DNA from: Alphaproteobacteria bacterium
GTDB lineage: Bacteria; Pseudomonadota; Alphaproteobacteria; Bin95
DNA: 64,000 bases
Direction: 5' to 3'
Assembly: GCA_022822125.1 (NCBI GenBank)
Contig: JAJECF010000048.1
Span: 16,905-80,904, forward strand
The translations under genes and the position numbers were made by a program. The notes beneath the pieces are model-generated. The model was not told where the DNA came from. It did not search any database and saw nothing but the letters and a program-made list of their open reading frames with translations. Below are positions 43,293 through 49,213 of the stretch, piece by piece. How positions within the stretch are numbered: the stretch's first letter is position 1; each line of letters opens with the position of its first letter.

Positions 43293-44081
43293 ATGACCGG
43301 CGAGACGGCCCTCTATGAACGCGATGGCGCGATCGTCACGATCACGCTCAACCGGCCCGAAAAGCTCAACGCCTTCGACGATGCGGCGGTGGAAGCGCTG
43401 TCGGAGGCGCTGGCACGCTTCGACACCGATCCGGACGCCAATGTCGCGATCCTGCACGGGGCAGGCCGCGCCTTCTCGACCGGGGCGGACGTGCTGCGGC
43501 GGCAATTGCGGCCGCGCGAGGAGCTGGAGCGCTTCGGCGGCCCGCAGGGGCGCGGCGCGGATTCCGGGCGGCTGTTCACCCATGCCGTCAACTGGAAGCC
43601 GGTGGTGGCCGCCGTTCACGGTTATGTCATGGGGCTTGCGGTCGGCATCGCGCTCGATTGCGACCTGCTGGTGGCGGAGGCCGGCACGCGCTTCCAGATC
43701 ACGGAAACCTCGCGCGGGCTCGGCGGCTCGGTCTATTGGGGGCTGATGCGGCTGCGCGGCGCGGGCGCCTTCGGCGACGAAGTGGCGCTGACCGGCCGCT
43801 GGTTCACGGCGGCGGAGGCCGCAGCCGCCGGCGCGATCAACCGCCTCGCGCCGGCCGGCGGCCACCTCGAAACCGCGCGTGAACTCGCGAATATGCTGAA
43901 CGCCAACCCGCCGCTCAGCGTGCGTTCGACGGTGCGGGCGCGCCGGCGGGAGATCGCGCGGGTGCGCTCCGAACTCTCCGCCGCGGCGCAGCCGGAGCGG
44001 CTCTACCTCACCGAGGATTTCCACGAGGCAGCGCTCGCCTTCAAGGAGAAGCGCCCGCCCCGCCCGTTCAAGGGGCGCTGA
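43293..44081 (+). CDS. Enoyl-CoA hydratase/isomerase family protein
   Basis: A 262-residue crotonase-fold protein starting at the ATG at 43293 (MTGETALYER). A typical oxyanion-hole segment GAGRAFSTGAD and the second-half motif GYVMGLAVGIALDCDLLVA are seen. The usual catalytic Glu pair is not fully clear, since the region reads SRGLGGSVYWGLMRLRG, so isomerase or hydrolase activity is also possible. It lies 115 bp after the SnoaL-like gene and ends overlapping the SUMF1 gene by 14 bp. Confidence 0.85.
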   Translation: MTGETALYERDGAIVTITLNRPEKLNAFDDAAVEALSEALARFDTDPDANVAILHGAGRAFSTGADVLRRQLRPREELERFGGPQGRGADSGRLFTHAVNWKPVVAAVHGYVMGLAVGIALDCDLLVAEAGTRFQITETSRGLGGSVYWGLMRLRGAGAFGDEVALTGRWFTAAEAAAAGAINRLAPAGGHLETARELANMLNANPPLSVRSTVRARRREIARVRSELSAAAQPERLYLTEDFHEAALAFKEKRPPRPFKGR

Positions 44082-44925
44082 CCGGGTCGAGCCCTTCCAG
44101 CACCGGGCGGAAGCCGACCAGGATGTGCTTCAGCCCGGCCGGGCGGCTGTGGCGGGCGGCGGGCCGGCAGACACCGCAGCCGCTGTCGTCCCAGGACCCG
44201 CCCTTGACCAGGAAACGCCCCGGCCGGGCCTCGGTCGCGGTCCATTCGAACACCTGCCCGGCGGCGTCCAGAAGACTGAAAGGCGAGGCGCTGTCGGGGA
44301 ACCGGCCGACCGGCAGCGTGTCGAACGGCCCGCCGTCGTGGCTGTTGAGCCGCTCCGGCGCAAACCCGTCGCCCCAGGGGAACCGGCGGCCATCCGCGCC
44401 GCGCGCTGCCTTCTCCCATTCCAGCTCGGTCGGCAGCCGCCAGACGCGTTCGGTGCGCGCCGAGAGCCAGGCCGTATAGGCCCGTGCGTCCTCATGCGAG
44501 ACCAGCACGACGGGATGCTGCTCCCGCCCTTCCGGCGGCCGGCCGCTGGCCCAGGCATGGCGGCGGGTGCGGGCATAGGGATGGATCAGGCCGTAGCCCT
44601 TCCAGGTTTCGGCATCGACATCGGGCACCCGGTGTCCGGTCGCCGCGATGAAGGCCGCATATTGCGCATTGGTGACCGGCGTGCGCGTGATCCGGAAGCC
44701 CGGCAGGCTCACCTTGCGGCGGTCGCGCTCGCCGTCGTACCAGCCCTGCCGGCGGGTGACGGAATGGCCGTAGGCGACCTCGTCCAGTCGATAGGCGGCC
44801 TCGCGCTCGGCCGCATCGGAACCTGCGATGAACGGGCCGGCGGGAATCGGCACGGTTTCCGGCGCCTCCGCGGCCGCTGCTTCGAAGGACGCCGCCAGAA
44901 ACAAAACCGCCAGCGCAATACGCAT
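44068..44925 (-). CDS. SUMF1/formylglycine-generating-enzyme-like secreted protein
   Basis: A 285-residue protein with a cleavable signal peptide (MRIALAVLFLAASFEAAAA, likely cleaved near 20). It has the FGE-sulfatase fold: TRTPVTNAQYAAFIAATG, RLPTELEWEKAARGADG and FPWGDG. The C-terminal GGSWDDSGCGVCRPAARH has two cysteines three apart. FGE-like proteins act on sulfatases or, in bacteria, as varied oxidases or ligand-binding proteins. Start at 44925 is chosen because GGAG lies 7 bp before it. Confidence 0.82.
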   Translation of the reverse strand: MRIALAVLFLAASFEAAAAEAPETVPIPAGPFIAGSDAAEREAAYRLDEVAYGHSVTRRQGWYDGERDRRKVSLPGFRITRTPVTNAQYAAFIAATGHRVPDVDAETWKGYGLIHPYARTRRHAWASGRPPEGREQHPVVLVSHEDARAYTAWLSARTERVWRLPTELEWEKAARGADGRRFPWGDGFAPERLNSHDGGPFDTLPVGRFPDSASPFSLLDAAGQVFEWTATEARPGRFLVKGGSWDDSGCGVCRPAARHSRPAGLKHILVGFRPVLEGLDPVSAP

Positions 44926-45052
44926 TTCCCTGCTCCTTCCCGCCGCCCGGTCTATCCGGCTCCGCGGCCTGGAAAAACCGTTTCTCACGCAGATGTGACC
45001 GGCTTCTTCCCTTTGTTCCGGGGGGACATATAGGTTAGCCTCGACAGCGGCG

Positions 45053-45080
45053 ATTATCGGATCGTCCGACGCATTATCGG
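45053..45080. promoter_or_regulatory. Direct repeat ATTATCGG upstream of Cys-repeat gene
   Basis: ATTATCGG occurs at 45053-45060 and 45073-45080, exactly 20 bp apart (two helical turns), 25-53 bp before the start of the Cys-repeat peptide gene. The spacing suits binding of a regulator to one face of DNA. A possible -10-like CATATAGG lies upstream near 45028-45035. This is seen directly, but the role is inference. Confidence 0.35.
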
Positions 45081-45105
45081 TAAAACGACAAACGGGAGAA
45101 CCGCC

Positions 45106-45429
45106 ATGAAATCCTATAAGGCCCGCCTTCTTTCCACTGCGGTCATCGGCGTGGGTATGGCCGTCGGCGCGGTCGGCGCAGCCAGCCTCGCCGGCACGGC
45201 CTACGCGGCCTGCAAGCCCGCGGCAGCGTGCAAGGCCTGTAATCCCTGCAAGCCGAAAAAGGCCTGCGGAGCCTGCAACCCGTGCAAGCCCGCTTGCGGC
45301 GCGTGCAATCCTTGCAAGCCTGCTTGCGGCGCGTGCAATCCCTGCAAACCCGCCTGCGGCGCATGCAATCCGTGCAAGCCGAAAAAAGCCTGCGGCGCGT
45401 GCAACCCCTGCAAGCCCAAGAGCAACTGA
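45106..45429 (+). CDS. Secreted Cys-repeat peptide (C-x2-C-x2-C units)
   Basis: A 107-residue protein. The first 34 or so residues are a signal peptide ending TAYA-A. The mature part is almost only Cys, Gly, Ala, Asn, Pro and Lys: six units of the form [10 protein letters not shown] or [12 protein letters not shown], with 19 cysteines and no His or aromatic residue. The DNA repeats with a 30-bp unit. The C-x2-C-x2-C spacing fits metal binding, and Pro-Lys linkers prevent hydrophobic core formation. A GGGAG precedes the ATG by about 8 bp. No maturation enzyme (such as an MNIO/DUF692 gene) lies near. Likely a metallothionein-like or structural peptide. Function is unknown. Confidence 0.75.
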
Positions 45430-45443
45430 AGCCCTGTCGGGCG

Positions 45444-45473
45444 GCGGCCGGTCTCCGGGCCGGCCGCGCTTTT
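45444..45473 (+). terminator. Rho-independent terminator after the Cys-repeat gene
   Basis: The stem GCGGCCGG (45444-45451) pairs with CCGGCCGC (45460-45467) across an 8-base loop, followed by GC and a run of four T (45470-45473). It lies 15 bp after the stop at 45429, on the plus strand, so the Cys-repeat gene is probably a single-gene transcript. Confidence 0.8.
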
Positions 45474-48215: not shown

Positions 48216-49058
48216 TCATATAGGCTCGATATCCCTCGCCTGGAGCCCGCGCGGCACGCTTTCCGCCCGGACGAAGACGCGCTGTCCCGGAGCGAGGTCC
48301 GCCATACCGGAGCGCTGCAGGACGCTGGAATGGACGAACACCTCGCGGCCGCCATCGTCCGGCACCACGAAACCGAAGCCCCGTATGGGATCGTAGAATT
48401 TGACCGTTCCCGGTAATTCCATGACAGGCCCCGCGGGCGCATCGCCGTGCCGGAAACGGTCCCGCGGCTCGTATCGCGGCCGGTCGCGGTCCGCCGGCCC
48501 GGCCCCGAAGGCCGGGGGCTCCATCGAGAGGAGCCTCGACACCTGGGGGCCCCTGTCCCCCTGCACGATCTCGCAGGTCACCACCGCGCCCTGCGGCAGC
48601 GTCTCGTGGCCGGACGCCTGCACGGCGGTCATATGGCAGAACAGGTCGGCGGTCCCGTCCTCGGGCTCGATGAACCCGTAGCCCTTGCTCGGCATGAACC
48701 ATTTGACAATGCCCCGAACCGTGCGGTCCGGAGCGGCAGCGGCCCGGGGGGCGCCGCGCTCCGCCATCGCCCCGTTGCCGGGCGTGCGGGCGAAAGGCGC
48801 TTCGCGCGGCGCGGCCTCGGAAAAATCGACAGCAAGTATCCGGGAGACCTCGGGGCCGAAGCGGCCCTGCGCGGTCTCACAGGTGACCGCCGCTCCGGCG
48901 AGCAGAACCTCCATGCCGACGGCATGCAGGGCCGCCCCGGAGCAGAAGACCTCGGCCGACCCGTCGCCGGGATCGAGCACGCCATGACGCTTCGCCGCAT
49001 CGTACCACTTGACCGTCGCCGAAATACGCGCGCCGGGTTCTGAAATCGGATCGGTCAT
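48216..49058 (-). CDS. Triple cold-shock-domain protein
   Basis: A 280-residue protein with three CSDs instead of one or two. Domain 3 (TVKFYDPIRGFGFVVPDDGGREVFVHSSVL) has good RNP1 and RNP2 motifs. Domain 2 (IVKWFMPSKGYGFIEPEDGTADLFCHMTAV) is intact except for the F-C change in RNP2. Domain 1 (TVKWYDAAKRHGVLDPGDG) has lost the aromatic RNP1 residues. Linkers are rich in Arg, Ala and Pro. ATG at 49058 (MTDPISE) is taken as start, and 49100 is possible. It should bind single-stranded nucleic acid. Confidence 0.85.
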   Translation of the reverse strand: MTDPISEPGARISATVKWYDAAKRHGVLDPGDGSAEVFCSGAALHAVGMEVLLAGAAVTCETAQGRFGPEVSRILAVDFSEAAPREAPFARTPGNGAMAERGAPRAAAAPDRTVRGIVKWFMPSKGYGFIEPEDGTADLFCHMTAVQASGHETLPQGAVVTCEIVQGDRGPQVSRLLSMEPPAFGAGPADRDRPRYEPRDRFRHGDAPAGPVMELPGTVKFYDPIRGFGFVVPDDGGREVFVHSSVLQRSGMADLAPGQRVFVRAESVPRGLQARDIEPI

Positions 49059-49213
49059 CCCGAATGGCTTTCCCGGTTTATGGACATTCGTATCGAACAT
49101 TCCTTTTACCGCCTGTCTCCGGGAGGGTGAAGGCCTTCGACTGCCGAAGGGCGGAACCGCAGCCGCACCGGACCGATAAGGGCGTCCGGCGGCTGCACGG
49201 CCCGTCCGTCGCG

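Follow-up and report, generated by a model that had tools for sequence, protein, structure and literature searches.

We describe here a short cysteine-repeat ('NPC-repeat') peptide gene found in a 64,000-nucleotide stretch of an alphaproteobacterial genome (contig JAJECF010000048.1; hereafter, the window), together with the protein families that accompany it. The repeat, the FGE-fold subfamily to which the peptide's divergent neighbour belongs and the family DUF6969 are linked in many rearranged loci, and this recurrent pairing points to an undescribed thiol-handling system. We read the window's peptide as the repeat-only form of an undescribed exported Cys-repeat family that works with an adjacent, dedicated FGE-fold partner and with DUF6969, a reading to which we assign a probability of about 0.5.

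The cysteine array and its linkage to two partner families

With cleavage after A34, the chain downstream of the leader has 73 residues, of which 19 (26%) are Cys. Most of these fall in six C-x2-C-x2-C units of the form [CGAC/CKAC]NPCKP, and the chain contains no Phe, Trp, Tyr or His, as an earlier note on this DNA had described. The DNA repeat unit of near 30 bp given there was also recovered (period 30 at 45265-45380, Tandem Repeats Finder). Pairwise comparison of the six units yielded 55 synonymous and 5 non-synonymous codon differences, even though synonymous sites make up 21% of all sites; the repeat unit is thus under protein-level selection, and the array reflects neither chance nor mere DNA slippage. 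The peptide is probably exported, judging from its leader, and a leader block of the LLST type recurs in many homologues (47 of 95 rows fit a loose [LI][LF][ST][SGTA] test, though a few do so at unrelated positions). No NCBIfam model matched the peptide up to E 1 and no Pfam metallothionein family matched it, where it should be noted that low-complexity sequences are poorly modelled. The sole Pfam match, to the CXXC zinc finger (PF02008, zf-CXXC; 20.5 bits against a cut-off of 26.5), was rejected as a low-complexity match. A database search returned 24 protein homologues, while scanning genomes for [AS]CGACNPC yielded 49 loci, 48 of which are recorded as Alphaproteobacteria, subgroups or genera thereof, or unspecified Proteobacteria, and one as Marinobacter.

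Co-occurrence was counted in 385 genomes, drawn evenly from the class of G006 (the genome of locus L006, recorded as Alphaproteobacteria), where the FGE subfamily was found in 32 genomes, the repeat in 47 and DUF6969 in 90. FGE and repeat coincided in 27 genomes, DUF6969 and FGE in 30, and DUF6969 was present in 44 of the 47 repeat genomes. These counts should be considered lower bounds, as the repeat profile (A2) missed repeats that were detected by regular expression in G086, G283, G289, G360, G551, G556 and G456. Physical linkage is less open than co-occurrence to the objection of common descent. A Cys-repeat open reading frame (ORF) was found within ~1.5 kb in 23 of 31 loci of the FGE subfamily, against none in 20 control regions, which surround other FGE-family matches. 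A looser repeat test gave 24 of the 31 loci and no control, the counted loci now including L050, which is negative in the strict test and whose repeat is known from L005. The 31 loci represent 30 of the 33 subfamily matches plus the G146 copy (L089), with the second G334 copy left out, and the controls are part of 36 lower-scoring FGE-family matches; the FGE copy in G062 has no repeat nearby. When FGE loci were merged into 61 groups (L074 and L106 being one gene), a repeat lay within 3 kb in 45 (32 divergent, 10 on the same strand and 3 convergent) and DUF6969 in 48 (46 on the same strand), yet 22 of the 61 were drawn from repeat-anchored loci, which makes the sampling uneven. Counted from the repeat, relatives of the window's FGE-fold protein occur in 25 of the 49 loci (E 3e-110 or better) and in 21 of 22 repeat-bearing genomes, several of which have a first repeat locus that lacks FGE. 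The class of G022 (Marinobacter) was sampled with 229 genomes: four gave a match to the repeat profile, each with DUF6969 within ~1.5 kb, and two a match to the FGE subfamily, one of which (L224) lies next to a Cys-repeat ORF whose tail is of haem type.

The window's own FGE-fold protein is encoded divergently, 180 bp from the peptide gene, and matches PF03781 (FGE-sulfatase/sulfatase-modifying factor) with E 1.9e-43, which refutes the earlier statement that the peptide gene stands alone with no modification enzyme adjacent. The protein has the FGE/SUMF1 fold, and its best PDB neighbours, by sequence and by structure, are ToxD, CalU17, PvdO, EgtB/OvsA and PorK. A C-x2-C is present in the FGE loop in 57 of 58 readable merged groups (L048, with unreadable bases, and L192 and L089, which end before the loop, were left out of the 61; L088 and L091 have the C-x2-C though a strict pattern missed it). 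Matching the sites by eye, we take this loop to be the counterpart of the FGE copper-cysteine site. FGE is a copper protein whose substrates begin C-x-P, and the C-x-(P/A) core common to the repeats and these substrates is suggestive, but Arg is missing from the repeats and the ORF detector used favours this core.

DUF6969 is His-rich, with many invariant histidines (alignment A5; L023:7818-8519 is an example). A confident model found no fold match in the PDB, no leader was evident, and no description of the family was found in the open PMC literature. It was not found in the window and is present in all five close relatives (with a fragment in G004). In four loci (L183, L184, L187 and L188), DUF6969 lies beside FGE with no repeat nearby. 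Sixty-four genomes (46 + 18) carry DUF6969 with no match to the repeat profile; 25 of these were read, and a Cys-repeat or NPC ORF was seen near DUF6969 in five (L133, L204, L207, L208 and L210), while the repeat test used gave none in the other 20.

Proposed function and competing explanations

For the chemistry of the system, which we infer, we propose that the chain would exit the cytoplasm as a flexible C-x-(P/A) thiol array, that the FGE-fold protein would bind this array in the envelope and oxidise some cysteines or load them with copper, and that, close to haem and copper proteins, the product may buffer a soft metal, with Cu(I) as the leading candidate, or thiol-redox stress. DUF6969 would probably work either on the precursor ahead of its export or on that same supply of metal or haem. 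Three points put copper ahead of other metals: FGE is itself a copper protein, five relatives have a cupredoxin-like gene nearby (Pfam-tested in L008), and a 2025 survey reports rare bufferin-Cytochrom_C-FGE fusions, which it reads as copper-related (PMC12452194). The earlier view of a secreted thiol-rich peptide, possibly modified or metal-binding, stands as the best class of explanation, but the isolation of the gene is wrong and the suggested MNIO partner is not supported.

Several observations weigh against the proposed system and need to be considered when judging it. The p values of the genome overlaps ignore common descent. DUF6969 occurs with no detected Cys repeat in 46 of its 90 genomes; the close relatives carry it on separate contigs, and the stretches of these that were read in G001, G003 and G005 show no repeat. 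The FGE subfamily is missing in 20 of the 47 repeat genomes, as well as in the Marinobacter repeat genome. The copper pair of human FGE, Cys336/Cys341, is spaced C-x4-C (PMC4505483), and this canonical pair is not conserved in the subfamily, which has C-x2-C instead (sites matched by eye); the gammaproteobacterial relative beside a Cys repeat, L224, lacks both cysteines. The repeats also depart from the CXPXR substrate motif, as they are C-x-(P/A) and the six residues most frequent at +4 do not include Arg. In the window itself, neither a metal gene nor a metal-response site was identified. Finally, two of the five closest database homologues (P0003 and P0005) carry frameshifts that fall within the array or close to its end, where decay and assembly error in the repeat are indistinguishable.

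Variable repeat number with frameshifts in relatives had been named in the earlier note as telling against its view. The number does vary, as the peptides of the five closest loci (L001-L005) have 22, 22, 19, 25 and 13 Cys, counted from the ATG, but all five are in frame, so that the frameshifts remain those of P0003 and P0005. These two are what a spurious or decaying repeat ORF would have in its favor, an explanation that we regard as practically negligible given the 55:5 ratio in the array, the conservation of the ribosome-binding stretch and of the hairpin described below, and homologues in two bacterial classes.

The altered FGE loop bears also on another explanation, possible but rather doubtful, in which the peptide is a passive exported metal or thiol buffer whose repeat, itself unmodified, takes up Cu(I), Zn or Cd or else forms disulfides reversibly, with the FGE-fold protein serving as a non-catalytic partner or chaperone. 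Such a role suits a chain so rich in Cys and free of aromatic and His residues, as well as a partner without the canonical C-x4-C (and, in the gammaproteobacterial relative, without both cysteines), and the FGE fold does include proteins with other roles, PorK and ToxD among them. Taken alone, however, it explains neither DUF6969 nor the strong conservation of the C-x2-C loop.

Many loci encode far longer proteins than that of the window, comprising a leader, Cys-repeat segments, a short C-x-(V/I)-P motif, further repeats and a C-terminal CxxCH domain, with up to 111 Cys in the open frame (L010:2884-4302, L013:3401-5725, L031:8846-10945 and others). Of 102 Cys-repeat ORFs, 53 have the CxxCH haem-type tail and 55 the C-x-(V/I)-P motif. 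This motif, which continues with mostly R and then mostly L, stands between two repeat blocks of the long homologues and is possibly a special site. The C-terminal domain of L010 is a Cytochrome_P460 domain (PF16694; 32.6 bits against a cut-off of 27), and similar tails were seen elsewhere by eye. Repeat-bearing Gammaproteobacteria combine the repeat with a different domain: in the Marinobacter locus L049 it surrounds a SoxA/TsdA-type c domain (Pfam), and in three of the four such bacteria it surrounds a mono-haem-type CxxCH domain (by eye beyond L049), the fourth having repeat-only ORFs. The three genes (L195:799-1710, which is the gene of L049, L197:1075-1827 and L198:859-1641) have DUF6969 adjacent or ~1.5 kb away.

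These domains could suggest a haem-redox module, in which the repeat would assist haem proteins of the envelope (P460-like or mono-haem c) by supplying or storing thiols or electrons, for example under nitric oxide or oxidative stress, the window's peptide acting in trans or being a reduced form. Five repeat-free loci in which DUF6969 has small CxxCH proteins nearby (L215, L217, L218, L219 and L221) agree with this. The window's clade has the repeat-only form of the protein. We find the haem-redox reading unlikely, as a search of the five close relatives (G001-G005) gave no PF16694, against seven of seven other genomes tested, and the surroundings of the window's gene showed no haem protein. 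The CxxCH fusions in about half of the homologous ORFs would, in turn, be unusual for a structural protein, and speak against a cross-linked peptide of the envelope or extracellular matrix, hardened through disulfides or with aldehydes that the FGE-fold protein makes. A low-complexity repeat of variable length (13-25 Cys in the five close relatives) behind an export leader would suit such a material, but the pairing of FGE and DUF6969 is left unexplained, and we consider this quite improbable.

Modification by an MNIO enzyme, as in bufferin-type ribosomally synthesized and post-translationally modified peptides, is a further reading, the earlier note having proposed a look for MNIO/DUF692 genes elsewhere in the genome. 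The peptide shares the general anatomy of a bufferin, having a signal peptide (by eye) and many Cys (19), and an MNIO gene exists somewhere in the genome in all five close relatives. However, phmmer with ten MNIO (PF05114) queries, five of which were in the right frame (L147, L148 and L150-L152), found no match at E 1e-3 among the ORFs of the window and the 49 loci, up to 10 kb on each side, and half of the repeat-bearing genomes examined (11 of 22) encode no MNIO at all. In the close relative G001, moreover, the MNIO gene (L156:1063-1380) adjoins a bufferin-like peptide of its own, separate from the NPC repeat (by eye). MNIO modification is very improbable here. As to a bufferin domain (Buf1, Buf2 or EGKCG), the comparison covered the NCBIfam models, with no match up to E 1, and Pfam, with only the sub-threshold zf-CXXC.

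Gene neighbourhood, promoter region and hairpin

The features of the peptide locus are collected in Table 1. The convergent neighbour of the peptide gene is an AhpD/CMD-like protein. Relatives of AhpD, enoyl-CoA hydratase, FGE and hydantoinase are found in all five closest loci and a SnoaL-like relative in four. In the 180-bp intergenic region, the blocks CTCACGCAG(A/T)TGTGACCG, CATAT(A/C)GGTTAGC and GCATTATCGG are conserved between the window and five relatives, as is the ribosome-binding stretch CGGGAGAAC. The phased promoter repeat reported earlier consists of two copies of ATTATCGG in the window, at 45053 and 45073; the first copy differs in the five close relatives, so that the phasing is not conserved. 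The hairpin after the stop codon is strong (-33.7 kcal/mol, z -2.37), and its stem is kept in all six aligned sequences, with the T-run altered in L005. It was, however, missed by a consensus terminator scan of the window and, as it sits between two convergent genes, it need not serve the peptide gene alone, which qualifies the earlier claim of an own terminator.

Two further observations concern genes nearby. A methionine sulfoxide reductase B-like gene (by eye) is present in six repeat loci (L022:7280-7798, L009, L010, L015, L021 and L023), and the window encodes, at 48216-49100 (-), a protein with three cold-shock domain matches.

Table 1 Features of the peptide locus, in window positions.
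Feature	Position	Strand	Remarks
FGE-fold protein	44068..44925	-	285 aa; hydrophobic leader (by eye); conserved GCG(V/I/T)CR loop
Shared divergent promoter region	44926..45105	.	Conserved blocks, six sequences aligned
Cys-repeat ('NPC-repeat') peptide gene	45106..45429	+	107 aa; ORF, homologues
Putative signal peptide	45106..45207	+	Residues 1-34, ending ...TAYA; AxA-type cleavage site, by eye
Six C-x-A-C-N-P-C-K-P units	45229..45417	+	Two pairs separated by additional KK(A)
Terminator-like hairpin	45439..45471	+	Between peptide gene and convergent AhpD-like gene

Comparison with known systems

No description of the combined repeat, FGE and DUF6969 system was found among the papers listed from the open PMC literature, a coverage that leaves subscription papers and preprints outside. 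Standard annotation misses the system because its Cys-repeat partner is of low complexity. With the system, an unassigned FGE-fold subfamily gains a testable physiological partner, DUF6969 is placed within a system, and a route to copper or redox handling is suggested; if the FGE-fold protein does act on the repeats, the known substrate range of formylglycine-type chemistry would widen.

Metallothioneins and copper storage proteins are, like the peptide, thiol-rich and free of aromatic residues, but the peptide is an exported low-complexity repeat with no Pfam metallothionein match. Cytochrome P460 (PF16694) is the C-terminal domain of the long homologue L010 and is absent from the window's peptide. 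With aerobic FGE (SUMF1), the neighbour shares its fold, and the C-x-P of FGE substrates resembles the C-x-P and C-x-A of the repeats; it differs in having C-x2-C, or no cysteines, in place of C-x4-C, in the lack of CXPXR in the repeats and in its linkage to Cys repeats. ToxD, CalU17, PvdO, EgtB/OvsA and PorK are nearest in sequence or structure but are known for other partners, and the conserved C-x2-C loop of the subfamily has no counterpart in the alignment with ToxD.

Bufferins, Buf_EGKCG proteins and oxazolin precursors are described in the 2025 survey as exported, Cys-rich and partner-linked copper buffers, some with long repeats (up to 58 Cys), and with rare fusions to Cytochrom_C and FGE-sulfatase domains (PMC12452194). 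To that extent the present peptide is alike, being Cys-rich, probably exported and genetically tied to partner proteins; unlike them, its repeat is C-x-(P/A)-C and not EGKCG, no MNIO was found in its loci, and it is accompanied by a free-standing FGE-fold protein and by DUF6969. We place the system with exported Cys-rich peptides having a dedicated partner protein; a separate class would follow if the proposed chemistry holds. Tentatively, and with the odds against it, such a class might comprise ribosomally made poly-thiol proteins that are exported and carry cysteines modified, outside the sulfatase context, by an FGE-fold enzyme of the envelope, with the cytosolic, His-rich, new-fold DUF6969 as a second, MNIO-independent maturation factor, and with fusions to two haem domains in different bacterial classes.
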